A stretch of 64,000 nt of DNA, taken from the NCBI GenBank assembly GCA_004138175.2, contig RYFE02000030.1, forward strand, positions 1 to 64,000. Direction: 5' to 3'. Below are positions 1,310 through 59,021 of this stretch, in pieces. A model generated the notes under the pieces. That model was not told the DNA's origin and ran no database searches. It saw only the letters and a list, made by a program, of their open reading frames with translations. The translations under genes were made by a program, and so were the position numbers. How positions within the stretch are numbered: position 1 is the stretch's first letter; the number at the start of each line of letters is the position of its first letter. This DNA comes from Chloroflexales bacterium ZM16-3. GTDB lineage: Bacteria > Chloroflexota > Chloroflexia > Chloroflexales > Chloroflexaceae.

Positions 1310-2710
1310 ATGCATCGCCCCGTGCTGCTGATCGCCACCCTGCTTGTCCTTGTCTCCGCACTCGCATCGCAGACCGCCGCCGCCGCGCCTGGCGCTCAGC
1401 CTGTCGCCACCTTCGCCTACTACCCGCAGACCGGGCACAATGTCGGGATGCAAGTCAAGCAGTTCTTCGACGCCAACGGTGGCCTCGATATCATCGGACT
1501 TCCGCTCACCGACCTGTTTGTGGATGCCAGCGGCCTCCAGGTGCAGTACTTCGAGCGCGCGCGATTTGAGCTGCGGCCCTCTGCGCCCGTCGGGTCGCGC
1601 CTCAGCCTCACCCGCCTCGGTGCCATGCTCACCGAGGGCCGTGGTGAGCCCGCCTTCGACTGGCTCGCCGCATCGCCCGACCCCGCGCGCGACTTCTTCC
1701 CCCAGTCGGGCCACTCGCTCGGCGGAGCCTTCGGCTGGTTCTGGCAGACCCGCGGCGGCCTCGCCGTCTTCGGCTACCCGATCTCCGAGGAGTTCGAGGA
1801 GTGGAACCCGGAGGCCGGGCAGGTCTACCTCGTCCAGTACTTCGAGCGCGCGCGCTTCGAGTACCACCCCGAGAATGCCGGCACACCCTACGATGTGATG
1901 CTCGGCTCTCTGGGCCGCACGCTGCTTGAGCGCAACCCGGATGCCCTCGCCGCCACAGCCCCGGCCAGCCCCGTCGAGCTGCTCGGTCAGGCCAGCACCG
2001 GCTTCTCGTCATCTGACTACGCACGCGTCACCAACATCAGCCGGGCCACCGAGATGATCGACGGCTATATGGTGCCCCAGGGTGCCGAGTTCTCGTTCGC
2101 CGGCGTCGGCGACTTCTCCGAGGAGAGTGGGTTTGTCGACGGCTACGCGATCGTCTCCGGTCGTCTGGAAAAGGTGATCGGCGGCGGGCTCTGCCAGGTC
2201 TCCACCACCCTATTCCGCGCCGTCTCGAACTCCGGCCTCCAGATCACCCGCCGCGTCGGCCACAGCCACGTGGTCTACTTCTACGAGAATATCCTCGGCT
2301 TCGACGCCACCGTCTACATCCCCGGCGTCGACTTCCGCTGGCGCAACGATAGCCCCGGCCCCGTCTACATTATCGGCACGGTGGATCGTGGCGCGGCGCG
2401 GATGACCTTCCAGATCTGGGGCACGAACGACGGGCGCCAGGTGACCTACGACGGCCCCTACGCGAAGAACCGGACTCAGCCGGGCGCGCCAGTCTGGCAG
2501 TATGATAGAAACCTGCCCACGGGCGCGGTGCGCCAGCTCGTCCACGGGCGCGCCGGTGCCGATGTCAGCTACTACCGCACGATCACGTTCGCCGATGGCA
2601 CGACCAGCCGCAACACGTACTTTACCCGCTACACGCCATGGGAAGACTTCTACACCTACGGCCCAGGCGTCACCCCGCCCGACGGCGCGACGATCATCCC
2701 GTCTCGGTAG
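1310..2710 (+). CDS. Secreted VanW-family protein with two QYFERAR modules
   Basis: The product is a 466-residue exported protein. Residues 1-26 are a signal peptide (hydrophobic stretch, then TAAAAP). Two related modules follow at about 32-125 and 135-225. Each runs from a TGH motif through a GGL...G(L/Y)P segment to VQYFERARFE. The C-terminal half, about 245-375, is a VanW domain with the signature GGGLCQVSTTLFRA. VanW-domain proteins occur in vancomycin-resistance clusters and widely in Gram-positive and Chloroflexota surface proteins, but their biochemical role is unsettled. The start at 1310 was chosen because it gives a clean signal peptide and has GAGG six bases upstream; an upstream GTG at 1253 would hide the signal peptide. 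The same module pair sits in the sortase at 29902-30954. Confidence 0.88.
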   Translation: MHRPVLLIATLLVLVSALASQTAAAAPGAQPVATFAYYPQTGHNVGMQVKQFFDANGGLDIIGLPLTDLFVDASGLQVQYFERARFELRPSAPVGSRLSLTRLGAMLTEGRGEPAFDWLAASPDPARDFFPQSGHSLGGAFGWFWQTRGGLAVFGYPISEEFEEWNPEAGQVYLVQYFERARFEYHPENAGTPYDVMLGSLGRTLLERNPDALAATAPASPVELLGQASTGFSSSDYARVTNISRATEMIDGYMVPQGAEFSFAGVGDFSEESGFVDGYAIVSGRLEKVIGGGLCQVSTTLFRAVSNSGLQITRRVGHSHVVYFYENILGFDATVYIPGVDFRWRNDSPGPVYIIGTVDRGAARMTFQIWGTNDGRQVTYDGPYAKNRTQPGAPVWQYDRNLPTGAVRQLVHGRAGADVSYYRTITFADGTTSRNTYFTRYTPWEDFYTYGPGVTPPDGATIIPSR

Positions 2711-2841
2711 TAATATATAGATGTAAGGCGAGGCTTCAGCGTACGTTATAGTTTGGAAGGTTGCATGGCTTGCTGATGCGGCGGCACCAACTCCCGACTC
2801 ATGAAGCCTTGTCTAAGAGTACAGCAATACAGCAGGTGTAA

Positions 2842-2919
2842 GGGCGCAGCGACGAAGCGTGATTGAGCCATCCTCACACAATAGTAGGATTGACTCGCTT
2901 CGCTGCTGCGCCCCTTTTT
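2842..2919 (+). terminator. Long hairpin with T-tract immediately before manA
   Basis: An 18-nt arm at 2842-2859 pairs with 2896-2913 (one mismatched region), followed by TTTTT at 2915-2919. The structure ends ten bases before the manA start codon, next to its ribosome binding site. It may terminate the VanW transcript, act as an attenuator for manA, or both. Confidence 0.55.
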
Positions 2920-2928
2920 GGAGATCTC

Positions 2929-3975
2929 ATGAATACACCCCTCTACCCGCTGCTCACCGAGCGGAAGATCGTCGAGCCGATCTGGGGCGGCGGCAAGCTT
3001 GCCGCATGGCTCGATCTGCCCGAGCCACACCCTGTACACCTCGGTGAGACATGGCAGGTCTACGATACAAATCTGGTTACGAACGGCCCGCTGGCTGGGT
3101 ATAGCCTCGCCGAGATCGCCCACAGGTGCGGCACTGATCTGGTGGGCACCCGCAGCTTCGCCCGCTACGGCGCCGACTTCCCGCTCCTGGCCAAGTTTAT
3201 CGCCGCCGCCGACCGGCTCTCCATCCAGGTTCACCCCGACGACGCCTACGCCCACACCCGCGAGGCCGCCTCCGGCTTCCATGGCAAGGCCGAGGCATGG
3301 TATATCCTCGACGCCGCCCCCGAAGCCAATGTCGTCTACGGCCTGAGCCGACATAGCGACCGCGACTCCTTCGCCGCCGCAGTCCGCGACGGCGAGCTAG
3401 AAGATCTGCTCCAGCGCATCCCGGTCGCCGCTGACAATGTGATCTTCGTGCCAGCCGGCACCATCCACGCGATCAACGCAGGGATCATGCTCTTCGAGAT
3501 CCAGCAGAAGTCCGACCTGACCTACCGGGTCTTTGACTACGACCGCCGCGATGCGCAGACTGGCCTGCCGCGCGAACTGCACCTGGCGAAGGCGCTCGAA
3601 GTGAGCGACTTCGGCCCGGCCCACCACGCCAAGCCTCCGGCACTAGAGCTTGCCCCCAACCGCGATCTGCTGGTCGCCTGCCCCTACTTCGCCCTGGAGC
3701 GGCTGAGGGTTTCCGGAGAGGTGGCGCTCGGCGGGCAAGACAGCTTCGAGATCCTGATCCTGATCGATGGCGAGGGCTCCCTCACCTGGTCCGGCGGCAC
3801 GATCCCGCTCCGCTTGGGCGACACGCCGGTGCTGCCAGCCAGCCTGACGGGCTGCGTCCTATCTGGAGACACGACGGTTCTGCGAACCTATGTGCCCGAC
3901 CTGGGCGCGCTTGCCGCCGATCTGCGGGATGCGGGGTATACAGACGCGCAGATCGGAGCTACGCTGCATCCGTAG
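2929..3975 (+). CDS. manA: Mannose-6-phosphate isomerase, class I
   Basis: This 348-residue cupin enzyme interconverts mannose-6-phosphate and fructose-6-phosphate, linking glycolysis to GDP-mannose and surface polysaccharide synthesis. The zinc-site motifs of type I phosphomannose isomerases are visible: QVHPDD near residue 100, GKAEAWY near residue 120 (the Glu ligand), and PAGTIHAI near residue 180 (the His ligand). The length fits the short Bacillus-like class better than the roughly 390-residue E. coli form. The ATG at 2929 has GGAGA five bases upstream; a longer reading frame from 2863 would pass through the hairpin at 2842-2919 and is unlikely. The downstream sugar nucleotidyltransferase at 10050 is a plausible pathway relative but not an operon partner. 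Confidence 0.92.
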   Translation: MNTPLYPLLTERKIVEPIWGGGKLAAWLDLPEPHPVHLGETWQVYDTNLVTNGPLAGYSLAEIAHRCGTDLVGTRSFARYGADFPLLAKFIAAADRLSIQVHPDDAYAHTREAASGFHGKAEAWYILDAAPEANVVYGLSRHSDRDSFAAAVRDGELEDLLQRIPVAADNVIFVPAGTIHAINAGIMLFEIQQKSDLTYRVFDYDRRDAQTGLPRELHLAKALEVSDFGPAHHAKPPALELAPNRDLLVACPYFALERLRVSGEVALGGQDSFEILILIDGEGSLTWSGGTIPLRLGDTPVLPASLTGCVLSGDTTVLRTYVPDLGALAADLRDAGYTDAQIGATLHP

Positions 3976-3989
3976 CCTACCGGAGTCCA

Positions 3990-4035
3990 GATTGTAGATT
4001 GCAGATTGCATCTAATCTACAATCTACAATCTACA
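3990..4035. repeat. Period-7 tandem repeat (atctaca / attgcag class)
   Basis: Imperfect copies of a heptamer, first as gattgta/gattgca and then inverted as atctaca, fill the 60-bp gap between manA and rsmE and run up to the rsmE ATG. The same class recurs at 26330-26386, 29306-29365 and 29839-29897. Confidence 0.85.
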
Positions 4036-4773
4036 ATGAAAAATACCTACCGCTTCTTCATACCCCCGGAGTCCTTCCGCGGTGACGCCGTGCGCGTGGT
4101 CGACGCAGACATGGCCCGGCAGCTCTCGCGCGTGCTGAGACTCGGCCCAGGCGACCGCGTGCTGCTCCTAGACGGACTCGGCGATGTGTGTGAGGTGGAG
4201 ATCGCCGAGCTGAGCCGCGATCTGGTGGCTGGGCGGGTGCTGCGCCGCGATCTCGCAGGCGAGCCCGCCCTCACTCTGACCATCTACCTCGCCATGATCC
4301 GCCCCGAGCGCTTCGAGTGGGTGTTGCAGAAGGGCACTGAGCTGGGCGTGCGGCGCTTCGTGCCCGTCCAGTTCGCTCGCTCCCAGGCTGCCGACCGCGC
4401 CGACGGGCGGAAGGCCGAGCGCTGGCGGAAGATCATCCGTGAGGCCGCCGAGCAATCCTGTCGCGGTCGGCTCCCCGAGCTTGGCGACCCGATCAGCTTT
4501 GCAGATGCCTGCGCCGCCGCTCTGTCGGCGAACATAGCCATGATCCTCTGGGAGGGCACCGCCCCGCCCCTGCGCGATCTGCTGCGCCGCCCCGGCCCAC
4601 CGCCCGACTCCATCGCCATTCTCTCCGGCCCAGAGGGCGGGATCACCGATGACGAACTGACAGCGGCCAGGGAGCATGGTATCATGCCCGTATCCCTCGG
4701 ATCACGGATCTTACGCGCGGAAACCGCCCCGATCGCGGCGGCGGCGGCCATCTCCTACGAGCTTGATCGCTAA
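4036..4773 (+). CDS. rsmE: 16S rRNA (uracil-1498-N3)-methyltransferase
   Basis: This 245-residue SPOUT-class methyltransferase uses S-adenosylmethionine to methylate U1498 of 16S rRNA in the ribosomal decoding region. An N-terminal PUA-like RNA-binding domain occupies about residues 1-70. The knotted SPOUT core follows, ending in the diagnostic segments LSGPEGGITDDE and LGSRILRAETAP, which form the cofactor-binding knot. The length is normal. The ATG at 4036 starts directly after a heptamer repeat tract with no clear Shine-Dalgarno sequence; an ATG at 4006 lies inside the repeat and would add ten non-conserved residues. It ends about 100 bp before the ctp gene, in the same direction. Confidence 0.93.
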   Translation: MKNTYRFFIPPESFRGDAVRVVDADMARQLSRVLRLGPGDRVLLLDGLGDVCEVEIAELSRDLVAGRVLRRDLAGEPALTLTIYLAMIRPERFEWVLQKGTELGVRRFVPVQFARSQAADRADGRKAERWRKIIREAAEQSCRGRLPELGDPISFADACAAALSANIAMILWEGTAPPLRDLLRRPGPPPDSIAILSGPEGGITDDELTAAREHGIMPVSLGSRILRAETAPIAAAAAISYELDR

Positions 4774-13243: not shown

Positions 13244-13280
13244 TTTTAGGGGTTGGGGGTTGGGGGTTGGGGGTTGGGAG
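13244..13280. repeat. Period-7 tandem repeat (gggggtt class)
   Basis: About four to five copies of the heptamer gggggtt fill the gap between the carboxypeptidase and aminotransferase genes. This is a different sequence class from the atctaca repeats but has the same unit length. Confidence 0.85.
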
Positions 13281-13287
13281 AGGCGGA

Positions 13288-14508
13288 TCATGATGCGCCA
13301 CGGGGGCGAACCGACTCCAGCCGTTCAGCAGCGGCACGCAGCGTCTCTAGCTTCTTCGCGAAGCAGAACCGCGCAAGTAGGGGCACCCCTTGTGGGTGCC
13401 TGTAGAATGCCGAGGGCGGGATGGCCGCCACACCCACCTCGCTGGTCAGCCAGCGGCAGAAGTCAGCGTCGCTGGCGAACCCAGCGTTGCTGATGTCGGC
13501 CATAATGAAGTAGCTGCCCTCCGCCGGCAGGGTCGGGAATCCGGCCGCGGCCAGCACCTCGGCCAGCAGAGCGCGGCGCTCATCGTACTCGGCGCGCAGC
13601 TCGTCGTAGTAGCCCGTCGCGGCGGCTCGCTCCAGGGCCACCGCAGCCGCCACCTGGAGCGGCGTCGCCGTGGCAAAGGTGATCCACTGGTGGGCCGCGC
13701 GCAGTGCCGCCGTCAGGTCGGCCGGGCCGACCGCGTAGCCGATCTTCCAGCCCGTCAGGCTGAAGGTCTTCCCGGTGCTGTTTATCGTCAGGGTGCGCTC
13801 CCACATCCCCGGCAGCGTGGCAATCGGCATGTGCCGGACATCCCCGAAGACCAGCTGGTCATACACCTCGTCGGCGATCACGACAACATCGTGGGCGATG
13901 CACAGCTCGGCGATCTGGGCAAGCTCGGCGGGAGAGAAGACCTTGCCGGTCGGGTTGTGGGGTGTGTTCAGCAGCAGCAGCCGGGTGCGCGGGGTGAAGG
14001 CGGCGGATAGCTCGACCGGGTCGAAGTGCCAGGAGGTCGGGGTTGGAGGTTGGGAGTCAGGAGTCGGGATCTGGGGAGGGTGCATGCGCACATACTTTGG
14101 CACGCCGCCAGCCATGACCACATCGGGCACGTAGGCGTCGTAGAAGGGCTCAAAGACGATCACCTCGTCGCCGGGGTTGATGAGAGCCTGGACGGCCCCG
14201 AAGATCGCCTCGGTGGCCCCGCTGGTCACCGTCACCTCGCTGGCCGGGTCCACCTCGCGCCATCCGTGGAAGCGCCAGGTGGCGGCGATCGCCTCGCGAA
14301 GGCGAGGGATGCCCAGGTAGGGCGGGTACTGGTTCTGGTCGGCGGCGATCGCCTCGGCGGCGGCGTCCTTCACCCAGGCGGGGCCGGCAAAGTCGGGGAA
14401 GCCCTGGCCCAGGTTCACCGCCCCGTGCTGCACGGCCAGGGCGCTGATCTCGGCGAAGATCGAGGTGCCGAAGCTGCGGACGCGCTCGGCGGTGCGGTTC
14501 GTGCTCAT
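13288..14508 (-). CDS. Class I/II PLP aminotransferase (KAT/MetC-like) carrying repeat-derived segments
   Basis: This 406-residue aminotransferase resembles kynurenine/glutamine transaminases and methionine aminotransferases. Conserved features include NLGQGFPDF near residue 33, TSGATEAIF near 95, NTPHNPTGKVF near 180, IADEVYDQLVF, and the PLP Schiff-base lysine in STGKTFSLTGWKIGYAVG. The start at 14508 follows AGGAGCGAGC; a longer frame to 14637 is non-conserved. Two oddities exist. Residues about 144-158 read QIPTPDSQPPTPTS, encoded by ggagtca/ggagtcg heptamers identical to intergenic repeats at 36448 and 37870; they sit where relatives run directly from VRLHPP into FDP. Residues near HPQGVPL are encoded by DNA matching a GTAGGGGC palindromic element. 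The exact substrate cannot be assigned. Confidence 0.88.
   Translation of the reverse strand: MSTNRTAERVRSFGTSIFAEISALAVQHGAVNLGQGFPDFAGPAWVKDAAAEAIAADQNQYPPYLGIPRLREAIAATWRFHGWREVDPASEVTVTSGATEAIFGAVQALINPGDEVIVFEPFYDAYVPDVVMAGGVPKYVRMHPPQIPTPDSQPPTPTSWHFDPVELSAAFTPRTRLLLLNTPHNPTGKVFSPAELAQIAELCIAHDVVVIADEVYDQLVFGDVRHMPIATLPGMWERTLTINSTGKTFSLTGWKIGYAVGPADLTAALRAAHQWITFATATPLQVAAAVALERAAATGYYDELRAEYDERRALLAEVLAAAGFPTLPAEGSYFIMADISNAGFASDADFCRWLTSEVGVAAIPPSAFYRHPQGVPLLARFCFAKKLETLRAAAERLESVRPRGAS
14030..14077. repeat. Period-7 repeat inside the aminotransferase coding sequence
   Basis: Heptamers of the ggagtca/ggttgga class (gttggaggttgggagtcagg and neighbours) lie in frame inside the gene and encode a Pro/Thr/Ser-rich stretch. 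The total is a multiple of three, so the frame is kept. Confidence 0.8.
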
Positions 14509-26308: not shown

Positions 26309-26388
26309 GGCACTGAGGCACTGAGTAATTGTAGATTGCAGCGTTGAATCTGCAATCTGCAATCTGCAATCTGCAATCTGCAATCATT
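26290..26388. repeat. Stacked period-8 and period-7 tandem repeats
   Basis: Four near-perfect gcactgag units (26297-26325) directly abut about six atctgca heptamers (26330-26386). The array spans the whole gap between hisC and the next ATG at 26389, so the ribosome binding region of the downstream gene is repeat DNA. Confidence 0.9.
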
Positions 26389-29838: not shown

Positions 29839-29897
29839 TGATTGCAGATTGCAGACCGAGCAAATAGCACCCAATCTGCAATCTGCAATCTGCAATC
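29839..29897. repeat. Period-7 tandem repeat (attgcag / atctgca class)
   Basis: attgcag units near 29839-29855 and inverted atctgca units at 29873-29897 flank a short spacer, so the tract can fold back on itself. It separates the sortase stop codon (29902) from the next gene. Confidence 0.85.
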
Positions 29898-29901
29898 GTC
29901 C

Positions 29902-31361: not shown

Positions 31362-31475
31362 GCAATAGAGCATAAGTAACGCTGTCACCCTGAGCGAAGC
31401 GAAGGGTCCCGGCCGGGATTCTTCGCTTCGCTCAGAATGACAGGACGCCTCACAGCGTTACTTCTGCGGTATTGC
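31362..31475. repeat. Family A MITE-like inverted repeat, 114 bp
   Basis: It has the same length, end sequences and inner dyad as 6614-6727, differing at only a few positions. TTTTGCC heptamers flank it on the left (31346-31361) and right (31471-31500). Confidence 0.88.
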
Positions 31476-31517
31476 CTTTTGCCTTTTGCCTTTTGCCTTG
31501 AAGCGATGGGGGCGACG

Positions 31518-36235: not shown

Positions 36236-36447
36236 TGCGCGCTTCAGTCAGCGGTACATAAAGCGCCCGCAAGCCTCGCTTGAGATTTAGGCTATGTGTT
36301 GTTGGGAGATCGCGATATGCCAATACCAGCAGCCAGCCACAATCCCGCCGTGCATCCTCAGGCTACTGATTATGTCCGATCATCCCACACGTGTCAATTT
36401 GCCACCGCATGGGACTCGTGGCATACTGACGCAGCAAATCTTTTCGG

Positions 36448-36525
36448 GGAGTCAGGAGTCGGGAGTCAGGAGTCGGGAGTCAGGATCCGACTCCCGACTC
36501 CTGACTCCTGACTCCCGCCCTCCAA
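36448..36525. repeat. Period-7 ggagtca repeat folded as an inverted repeat
   Basis: Five ggagtca/ggagtcg heptamers (36448-36484) are followed by the inverted heptamers gactccc/gactcct (36489-36519), giving a potential 30-bp stem about 20 bases before the asnS start codon. Confidence 0.88.
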
Positions 36526-37871: not shown

Positions 37872-38045
37872 CGAGGAGTCAGGGGTCGGGAGTCAGGGGT
37901 CAGGGATTGCGAGCCGTAGGGGCGCGACGCGCCCCTACGGCTCGTCCCAAAACTTGAGAGGGCGGGGTCAGACTCCTGACTCCCGCCCCCCCCGACTCCC
38001 GACTCCTGCCCTCCGACTCCTGCCCCCCGACTCCCGACTCCTGAT
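37872..38045. repeat. ggagtca-class repeats around a palindromic GTAGGGGC hairpin
   Basis: Period-7 ggagtca/ggggtca units (37872-37905) lead into a 17-bp stem cgagccgtaggggcgcg/cgcgcccctacggctcg (37910-37944). Inverted gactcct/gactccc units follow (37970-38042). The block fills the space between asnS and the convergent membrane-protein gene and may terminate both. Confidence 0.85.
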
Positions 38046-38585: not shown

Positions 38586-38724
38586 AGACAGGGGACAGGG
38601 GACAAGGGACAGGGGAAGCGCATTATTATGATTGGCGTCACAGCCCGACAGCCCAACAGCCCAATAGTCCGACAGTCCAACAGCCCGACAGCCTCACACA
38701 TCCCTGTGAGGCTGTCGGGCTGTT
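38586..38724. repeat. Period-7 gggacag and period-8 cccgacag repeats ending in a hairpin
   Basis: About four gggacag heptamers (38586-38615) are followed by six cccgacag/cccaacag octamers (38643-38690). A 19-bp stem (38679-38697 with 38706-38724) built from the last octamers lies 28 bp past the gatC stop and could be its terminator. Confidence 0.85.
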
Positions 38725-46389: not shown

Positions 46390-46652
46390 ACGGCTGGCGA
46401 CTGAAGTCGCGCCGTCGGGGCGCGTTGCGCCGGGCGTCGGCATGCGCCGACGCCGGAACCGCCCGCGTAGGCGGGCGGCTGGCCGCAGGCCCCCGCGACG
46501 CGGCTTTAGCCGCCAGCGATGTTGCACATGCCCTGCATCCCTGCGCATCCCGATGCGCTGTAGGCGGGCGGCTGGCCGCAGGCCCCCGCGACGCGGCTTT
46601 AGCCGCCAGCGATGTTGCACATGCCCTGCATCCCTGCGCATCCCGATGCGCT
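46390..46652. repeat. Family B palindromic repeats with a 93-bp tandem duplication
   Basis: Hairpin modules (ggcgactgaagtcgcgcc, gggcgtcggcatgcgccgac, gcccgcgtaggcgggcggc and others) form a cluster at 46390-46512. The segment 46468-46559 is repeated exactly at 46561-46652. The cluster is closely related to the copy at 51128-51254. Confidence 0.9.
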
Positions 46653-57783: not shown

Positions 57784-58911
57784 ATGCTCCGACTGACTGC
57801 GATGCGACGGATGTCCGCGCTCGTCCCGCTGCTTGCCGCCATCCTGGTCGGCTGCGCCGACTCCGGCGGCGCTGTCGGGTCGCCTACCTCCCCGCCGATC
57901 ATCCCTGTGGCTGAGGCTGCCACGCTGCCGACATCCACCCCGGTGCCGCCCACCGCCACCTCGGTGCTGCCGACATTCACCCCGGTGCCGACATCCACCC
58001 CGGTGCCGCCCACCGCCACCCCGGCCGGGCCAACCGTCGTGCCCACGCCCTCGCCGCGCCCGGCGGGCACAGCGCCCCGCGTGGGCCTGCAGGCCGGCCA
58101 CCTGAACGCCAGCGAGCTTCCCGATGAGCTGGCCCGCTTTCGCACCTCGACCGGCGCGCGCTACGGCGGCGTTAGCGAGGCCGATCTTAACTACGATATC
58201 GCCCAGCGCGTGCAGGCGCTTCTGGAGGCCGAGGGCGTGATCGTCGATCTGCTGCCGGCGACCATCCCGCCCAGCTATGACGCCGATGCCTTTATCGCCA
58301 TCCACGCCGACGGCTCTGCGGCCTCTGGCCCGCGCGGCTGGAAGCTGGCCACGCCCTGGCGGGCCTCGCGGGCCGCGCAGCAGCTACTCGACGCCGTGGC
58401 CGCCAGCTACGGCCCGGCCACCGGCCTGCCCCAGGATGTCGGCGGGGTCACGGTGAATATGCGCGGCTACTACGCCTTCAACGACCGTCGCCACACCCAC
58501 GCCATCGCCCGTACCACCCCGGCGATCATCGTTGAGATGGGGTTTATGACCAGTGCCGCTGATCGGGCCGTCCTCTTCGACCAGCCCGGCCGGGTGGCCA
58601 GCGGGATCGCCCAGGGCGTCCTGGCCTACCTGGCCCAGCGCGACCCGAGCGACGGCGCGGCCCTGCTGCCGCCGGACTTCCCTAACCTGCGGGTTGGCGA
58701 GGCCGGGGCCATCCTGCGCTCTGCCCCCAGCGATGACGCCCGCCAGATCACGCGCATCGCCGCCGGGCAGCGCCTCTTCGCCCTTGACCGACGCGACGGC
58801 TGGTACCAGGTCTTCTCGCGCGACTTCCCCAGCGCCCCCGGCTGGATTCGCGAGGATCTGCTGGAGACGACGAGCGAGGCGTTCCCCTTCCCGACGACGA
58901 CGAACCCGTAG
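57784..58911 (+). CDS. Lipoprotein N-acetylmuramoyl-L-alanine amidase (Amidase_3) with SH3 domain
   Basis: This 375-residue cell-wall hydrolase splits the bond between MurNAc and L-alanine. A lipobox near residue 23 (LLAAILVGC) gives lipid anchoring. A stalk made of TPVPPTAT-type repeats (36-bp DNA repeats near 57935-58025) leads to the Amidase_3 domain (about 95-275). Zinc-site candidates are His in GLQAGHLN, Glu in the SEADLNYDIA segment, His in AIHADGS and Glu in VEMGFMTS. A C-terminal SH3-like domain (about 300-360) follows. GAGG lies nine bases before ATG 57784; upstream ATGs at 57766 and 57745 are alternatives. Its 3' end is followed by period-8 repeats. Confidence 0.9.
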   Translation: MLRLTAMRRMSALVPLLAAILVGCADSGGAVGSPTSPPIIPVAEAATLPTSTPVPPTATSVLPTFTPVPTSTPVPPTATPAGPTVVPTPSPRPAGTAPRVGLQAGHLNASELPDELARFRTSTGARYGGVSEADLNYDIAQRVQALLEAEGVIVDLLPATIPPSYDADAFIAIHADGSAASGPRGWKLATPWRASRAAQQLLDAVAASYGPATGLPQDVGGVTVNMRGYYAFNDRRHTHAIARTTPAIIVEMGFMTSAADRAVLFDQPGRVASGIAQGVLAYLAQRDPSDGAALLPPDFPNLRVGEAGAILRSAPSDDARQITRIAAGQRLFALDRRDGWYQVFSRDFPSAPGWIREDLLETTSEAFPFPTTTNP

Positions 58912-59021
58912 CACTGAGGCACTGAGGCACTGAGGCACTGAGGCATCACTGAGCAGATGAGGCACTGAGGCACTGAGTATGATCCGGATCATACTCAGTG
59001 CCTCAGTGCCTCATCTGCTCA
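58911..59021. repeat. Period-8 gcactgag repeats and a 72-bp perfect palindrome
   Basis: Four gcactgag units (58912-58944) precede a 72-bp perfect palindrome at 58950-59021, centred on GATCCGGATC and itself built of gcactgag units. It covers the last four codons of the thioesterase gene, including its stop, and lies between convergent genes. Confidence 0.92.

Follow-up and report, generated by a model that had tools for sequence, protein, structure and literature searches.

A translated array of dispersed heptamers in an aminotransferase loop of a Chloroflexales genome, and apparent replacement of repeat units at occupied coding sites

The aminotransferase locus described here raises the question of how 7-bp repeats of the kind found around asnS come to be translated inside a conserved enzyme gene, and of what stood at the site before them. 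The analysis was carried out on a 64,000-nt stretch of the genome of Chloroflexales bacterium ZM16-3 (the window; contig RYFE02000030.1). This genome is denoted G000 and its five congeners G001-G005; L numbers denote loci. The features considered are as follows.

13288-14508, minus strand: gene for a PLP-dependent class I/II aminotransferase of 406 aa (kynurenine/methionine aminotransferase-like), which contains the insert
14032-14073, minus strand: in-frame heptamer insert, 42 nt, residues 146-159 (QIPTPDSQPPTPTS); a lone C-rich arm on the coding strand, no hairpin
13249-13278, unstranded: intergenic GGGGTTG array, 4.3 copies (TRF), just past the 3' end of the aminotransferase gene
36446-36523, unstranded: heptamer hairpin upstream of asnS, GGAGTCA/GGAGTCG arm followed by GACTCCC/GACTCCT arm (G-rich first); contains an 18-mer in common with the insert
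37875-38041, unstranded: heptamer arrays after asnS, GGAGTCAGGGGTC-type at 37875-37906, then GACTCCC-type at 37971-38041 (G-rich first)

The original prediction was that a ggagtca-class heptamer is present in frame inside the aminotransferase gene, and this was confirmed, with the stretch trimmed to 14032-14073. Its 42 nt correspond to six heptamers, or 14 codons, without a stop; the expected Pro/Thr/Ser-rich stretch of about 14 residues and the frame-preserving length therefore both hold, and PTPDSQPPTPTS is the peptide expected across the site if the 42 nt are translated. On the plus strand the insert reads GGGGTTG, GAGGTTG, GGAGTCA, GGAGTCG and GGA, two unit types being mixed (GGGGTTG/GAGGTTG, then GGAGTCA/GGAGTCG). 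The longest word of the insert that recurs elsewhere in the window is an exact 18-mer, GGGAGTCAGGAGTCGGGA, at 36447 in the array upstream of asnS, and 17 nt of its complement are found at 36492. The unit of the array at 13249-13278 is that of one half of the insert. Over the 48-nt stretch 14030-14077, lag 7 gave 25 matches out of 41, the highest among lags 3-12. The 9-mers of this stretch were present in intergenic arrays of other contigs in 21 of 40 cases, a score reached by 7 of 108,031 sampled gene windows; the matches listed with scores of at least 12 were the aminotransferase insert and other translated arrays. The insert is a degenerate array, below the strict array threshold, with 14/18 matches at lag 7 as against 16-17/18 in six relatives. 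Other repeats are also present in the window. A 93-bp unit is perfectly duplicated in tandem at 46467-46652, 8-mer arrays (ACAGCCCA, GCACTGAG) lie alongside the 7-mers at 38640-38693 and 58911-58977, and heptamer arrays at 26344-26387, 29870-29900 and 31469-31501 overlap the ends of called genes, where they may extend or alter starts and stops.

The host protein is a well-defined family member. PF00155 covers residues 31-397, most of the protein (E 8.8e-63), the NCBIfam model PRK09082 scored 421.9 bits against a cut-off of 420, and the closest solved structures are 1u08 and 2o0r (KAT I/III). An AlphaFold2 model had a mean pLDDT of 93.7, and comparison with 2o0r by Foldseek (TM 0.91 by query) indicates that the family fold is predicted to be retained despite the insert. 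In this model residues 146-159 form coil between a strand (136-143) and a helix (164-170), and the ten-residue blocks that cover them have pLDDT values of 84 and 78 against the mean; the predicted structure thus agrees with the earlier suggestion that the insert might lie in a loop. When mouse kynurenine aminotransferase III was aligned with the window protein, only a small gap fell at the insert stretch. The mouse enzyme is long there without repeats, and thus the aminotransferase loop tolerates length in a repeat-free form as well. Judging from the intact frame and the homology on both sides, the gene is probably expressed with the insert.

The loop was compared in 80 relatives, obtained from a scan with one genome per species. 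The insert peptide was absent from all 80, and the orthologue comparison proposed earlier thus favours the original reading. The claim that family members "go straight on" at this point stands outside Chloroflexales, where the loop between the flanking PP and W/F is 1-5 residues long in 55 of 55 relatives (one residue in 45 of them). Congeners have inserts of other heptamers at the site. Among the 25 other Chloroflexales loci the loop has six residues in nine cases and 7 to 52 in the remainder. Clear period-7 DNA was found in six of the 25, with 16-17/18 matches at lag 7 and 11 or fewer at lags 5, 6, 8 and 9; no loop exceeded 12 at these other lags. The units are GGATGAA with inverted TTCATCC in L002, L003 and L004, CAGCCCT in L001, CCCGATC in L009 and CAATCTG in L017. 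In terms of the congeners, an in-frame GGATGAA...TTCATCC hairpin occupies the loop in G002, G004 and G005, and CAGCCCT units occupy it in G003. Eight further loops (L010, L012, L016, L020-L022, L024 and L033) have 12-33 residues without clear period-7 sequence, which means that there are other ways for loop length to change, or that an array can decay with age. In the G002 aminotransferase (L003, about 4155-4250), RHPQGVPL is repeated locally in tandem and enlarges a second loop; this peptide is present once in G000 and is missing from the other congeners. RHPQGVPL was considered as a dispersed repeat and rejected: its DNA core was found a single time in the sampled G000 sequence and nowhere in that of G002, which makes it a local repeat.

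A tree of the six congeneric species was built with FastTree alone from 2,236 aligned columns of four proteins, the missing PriA of G005 being entered as gaps. The splits were {G000,G002} at 1.00 and {G003,G004,G005} at 0.998, G001 lying outside both. Both clades contain GGATGAA inserts, and those of G002, G004 and G005 are equal in length. Their spacers are identical at 22 of 27 positions between G002 and G004, and at 15 of 27 between G005 and each of these. The simplest history for these sequences would have the GGATGAA hairpin ancestral in the loop and replaced twice, in G000 and in G003. Since the tree places another heptamer hairpin in the ancestor, the event in G000 looks like a repeat-for-repeat replacement and not like a fresh arrival. 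The claim that the repeats can move or expand into coding DNA is supported, with the correction that the gene was apparently not clean of repeats beforehand.

The wider occurrence of such arrays was examined in a G000 sample of 1,221,399 bases (19.5% of the genome, window included), an array being called at 19 or more of 21 matches at lag p. Period 7 yielded 175 arrays and its harmonic, period 14, yielded 71, as against 0-14 for each of the remaining periods from 4 to 15; 13 of the 14 period-8 arrays were intergenic. The arrays are 28-97 nt long, with changing units. Called genes contain 81 of the 175 arrays, and 38 lie well inside genes, separated by 40 or more residues from the start and by 25 or more from the stop assigned by a crude gene caller. 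The aminotransferase insert is therefore one of many and not a single case. The sample is 85-92% coding by contig, so that per base arrays are still rarer in genes than in spacers. Of the 29 genes with the 38 in-gene arrays, 26 were scanned against Pfam, the exceptions being one that crosses a stretch boundary and two whose upstream codon score was negative; 23 of the 26 matched. The hosts supported in this way include DnaE, PriA, FtsK, an AMP-binding enzyme, an E2 acyltransferase, a GATase_3 protein and a molybdopterin dehydrogenase. Several arrays fall within a single Pfam match (AMP-binding, GATase_3, DUF2079, Glyco_tranf_2_3) and many lie between domains. The G002 sample (629,809 bases) gave a similar picture, with 111 period-7 arrays as against 0-6 at other tested periods, 47 of them in called genes.

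Division of 7 by 3 leaves a remainder of 1, and a stop-free unit is consequently open in all three frames of its strand. Whichever frame is read, such a heptamer yields a single cycle of seven residues (GVRSQES or PNPQPPT, for instance), and the unit is therefore unusually easy to translate. The possibility that units are selected as stop-free on both strands was not supported, because no bias beyond base composition was seen: 61 of 94 intergenic arrays were stop-free, compared with 49.1 +- 11.8 after letter shuffling, and 15 of 30 by unit family, compared with 16.9 +- 2.0. Two replication genes of the congeners showed irregularities. In G003 a long inverted array of GGTGAC-type 8-mers interrupts priA (L215, about 1200-1560), and the PriA halves are in different frames (contig 1045-2055 and 2438-4108), being either frameshifted there or misassembled. 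In G002, DnaE ends near residue 1130, at the site of the heptamer array in G000 (L236 and L240), and the C-terminal part (1172-1272) matches another contig.

The persistence of array sites was then compared between G000 and G002. Seventeen in-gene array sites of G000 with an orthologue in the G002 sample were compared; 13 of these were occupied in G002 and four were without an array. Outside the comparison fell 18 array rows for which the sample contained no orthologue, and three unbounded loops (two and one, respectively, on the G002 side). In a random-site control, 7 of 1500 sites were occupied. The reverse comparison gave 13 of 18 G002 sites shared with G000 (nine with a different unit, four with the same) and five without an array. 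With alternative merging of duplicates there were 19 array sites, of which 14 matched at lag 7 and one at every other tested lag. At 31 G000 insertions of at least 5 aa without called arrays, the G002 loops matched in eight cases each at lags 6, 7 and 8; such equal matches point to low complexity, with no period-7 excess at array-free insertions. In intergenic spacers an array was also present in G002 at 14 of 24 array-bearing sites and at 15 of 123 array-free ones (Fisher p 3.6e-6), and eight of the 14 spacers occupied in both species have a unit in common.

The exact unit class at the 13 shared in-gene sites was the same in four and different in nine. Five of the nine "different unit" rows, which represent four loops, plainly belong to other families, and the other four are near variants or weak. 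The four loops are listed below, G000 against G002.

GGAGTC-type hairpin (ACTCCCG/ACTCCTG) against AACATTC hairpin: two rows, full hairpins in both species
AATGCTG against AAAAGGT
AGCCCTC against AATCTGC
AACCCCC against AACATTC: PriA

The hairpin in GATase_3 is common to G000 and G002 and is absent from G001 and G003-G005.

The same sites could be filled in another manner, if the loop were merely permissive and each species had regained a repeat of its own after loss; a shared position would then say nothing of ancestry. The comparable length of mouse KAT III at the site without repeats, the variation of loop length in Chloroflexales without period-7 sequence, and the four of 17 G000 array sites that are empty in G002 all fit such independent arrivals. 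Against them stand the equal-length GGATGAA hairpins with similar spacers in both clades, the high occupancy relative to random sites, and the site at which both species have a full hairpin of different units. Independent arrival is thus unlikely, with some weight still to be given to it, and from these comparisons we infer in-place replacement rather than loss and regain.

The units themselves are dispersed and differ in abundance from genome to genome. The unit GGAGTCAGGAGTC is present in 221 copies in its own genome, where a reversed-pattern control gave 2; the counts in G001-G005 are 0, 4, 0, 0 and 0, and it was found in 20 of 158 genomes of the class. In G026, from another genus of the family, the GGAGTCA unit has 270 copies and is as abundant as in the window genome, the congeners being nearly without it; its occurrence in both reflects either transfer or a repeated origin of the unit. 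The GGATGAA unit, counted as GGATGAAGGATGAA, has 114, 104 and 85 copies in G002, G004 and G005, whose loops hold it, and 12, 0 and 0 in G000, G001 and G003. This loop unit, confined to certain species, is plentiful in the genomes where the loop contains it. G003 is not alone in having CAGCCCT (26 copies there, as against 46 in G000 and 54 in G002). Its backward control, TCCCGACTCCCGAC, is itself a unit of the G000 genome, with 420 copies there and none in the other 40 genomes of the family.

If the loop DNA had slipped and expanded in situ, with no copying from intergenic arrays, site-specific units would be expected. Instead, a few families recur at unrelated places (AATCTGC 37, ACTCCCG 28 and AACCCCC 22 of the 175 arrays), and the insert has its 18-mer in common with the asnS array and half of its 9-mers with arrays on other contigs. 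Loops and linkers are relaxed regions, and polymerase slippage favouring 7-bp units has been proposed, in views cited within the accessible text of PMC4692102 and PMC4679880; even so, a purely local birth appears quite improbable. Still less probable is a useful insert, maintained by selection because its hairpins or peptides control the message or assist the protein. The loop RNA of G002 and G005 does fold strongly (z -8.1 and -7.0), and array sites persist between species. However, units and peptides change freely at the persistent sites, the window copy does not fold into a hairpin as RNA (z +0.58), and the host genes have no common pathway. That the stretch is an old Pro/Thr/Ser feature of the enzyme which merely resembles a repeat is scarcely credible in spite of the longer mouse KAT III loop, and is refuted for this peptide by its absence from all relatives and by the 1-5 residues found outside Chloroflexales. 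An assembly or binning artefact is equally hard to believe: low-complexity arrays can break assemblies, as the frames of G003 priA and the split of G002 dnaE between contigs may illustrate, but long inserts are present at the same site of the aminotransferase in four separately deposited congener assemblies, with the frame intact in all.

These results suggest, with good confidence, that dispersed heptamers native to this genome make up the insert as a short array, translated in an aminotransferase loop where an ancestral hairpin was replaced in the window lineage, and that the insert is a tolerated passenger. The latter is the most likely status of the insert, and a benefit to the enzyme is not needed to account for it. 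More generally, the data suggest that heptamer repeats become established within protein genes and are exchanged for others while the gene stays intact. In the mechanism proposed, arrays would spread through genomes by a presumed route, expand, shrink and be copied over one another. Copies in genes would survive where the protein tolerates them (loops, linkers and ends) and where the net change in length is a multiple of three. At this locus, a GGATGAA...TTCATCC hairpin in the loop of the ancestor of five congeneric species would have given way to GGAGTCA/GGGGTTG units in the window lineage.

The order of the arms places a further constraint on how the arrays arise. Two adjacent arrays were taken as an inverted pair if their G/C skews were opposite and they lay no more than 150 nt apart. 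The G-rich arm came first in 24 of 24 pairs in G000 and in 16 of 16 in G002 (40 of 40 in total, among 175 and 111 arrays), some of the pairs being the same site in both species, so that the 40 are not fully independent. An inverted pair reads alike on both strands, and its arm order is thus a property of the DNA, independent of gene direction. Single arrays showed no strand preference (88 against 87). When the genome listings for GGAGTCAGGAGTC and GGATGAAGGATGAA were inspected by eye, the same G-first order alone was seen among the matches listed. In a check for a snap-back origin, the best match between arms was about 0.8-0.95, usually in several registers 7 nt apart, and the symmetric register was not consistently preferred; three of the 40 pairs reached 1.0 in the best register.

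One conceivable source of this order is a telomere-like system, in which a hypothetical enzyme would grow the G-rich strand of heptamers at free 3' ends beside a DNA break and the ends would then be joined. We regard this proposal as doubtful. If both ends of a break grew in this way, the G-rich arm would invariably precede the C-rich one, as in the 40 pairs; if one end did, a single array of the kind seen in the window insert would result. Switches of unit between genomes would follow changes of the template or of the preferred unit, and old arrays, as preferred sites of new breakage and repair, would be replaced in place inside genes. Ku-dependent end joining was considered for the joining step and rejected, PF02735 being found in none of the six genomes of the genus; the same profile gave a hit in one of 14 controls, B. 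subtilis. Telomerase-like or RT-templated repeat addition was also considered, which would call for a reverse transcriptase in each array-bearing genome; the domain RVT_1 was found in five of the six genomes and not in G003, which is 94% complete and has a period-7 array in its loop.

Several known systems resemble these arrays in part. Rickettsia palindromic elements (RPEs) have been found as in-frame inserts in 19 reading frames, with guanylate kinase still active, and like their Wolbachia equivalents they are dispersed, often form hairpins, and occur both between genes and in frame in conserved genes, as described in the accessible text of PMC2229807; the present arrays have this twofold location too. 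In that account each RPE is a defined element, 105-146 bp long and bearing terminal inverted repeats, whereas here 7-bp arrays of many unit families occur per genome. The arrays do not match an RPE-type element of about 105-146 bp with terminal inverted repeats, as they measure 28-97 nt and the window insert is one-armed; unlike RPEs they can be single-armed, and the unit is replaced at the same site between species. Bacterial MITEs (Correia/NEMIS, ERIC) are likewise small non-autonomous repeats, some of them fused in frame to genes (same source, same portion), but the constant element and the terminal inverted repeat of fixed sequence that mark them are absent here. The heptamers of Nostoc and Xanthomonas (GGGGATT, GGGAATC; STRR/G4 type) are also dispersed 7-bp arrays that vary between close species. 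According to the portion of PMC4692102 available, they are intergenic and under-represented in coding regions, in contrast to the 81 of 175 sampled arrays in called genes and the several coexisting families found here, although per base the present arrays too are less frequent in genes than in spacers. The period-7 excess and the presence of the same unit at many unrelated places place the present arrays with heptameric simple sequence repeats. The TAACTGA repeats of Beggiatoaceae are similarly abundant 7-bp direct repeats, patchy over phyla; as far as the available part of PMC4679880 goes, they are mostly one intergenic unit with stops in the forward reading and rare single-base variants, in contrast to the many units seen here. 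In the coding palindromes of Nematomorpha mitochondria inverted repeats are translated within conserved genes, as here, but the arms there encode conserved protein segments (PMC6649704, in the text accessible), whereas here they are added variable loop sequence made of heptamers. Searches of the heptamer and Chloroflexi literature, with limited coverage of subscription journals, yielded no paper on translated heptamer arrays in Chloroflexales. What seems new here is the in-place replacement of units at long-occupied coding sites, together with the strict arm order.

The in-frame repeats of Rickettsia are a fairly fixed element; here, 7-bp arrays lie in genes of replication and metabolism, and the loops are rewritten from species to species. 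The replacements in DnaE, PriA and the aminotransferase thus form a natural series of loop exchanges in which the tolerance of proteins can be studied. Any model for the origin of heptameric repeats has to account for the strict G-arm-first order, which can be tested in other repeat-bearing bacteria. If the telomere-like scheme were true, it would mean an addition system of that kind operating inside bacterial chromosomes and writing new peptide loops.
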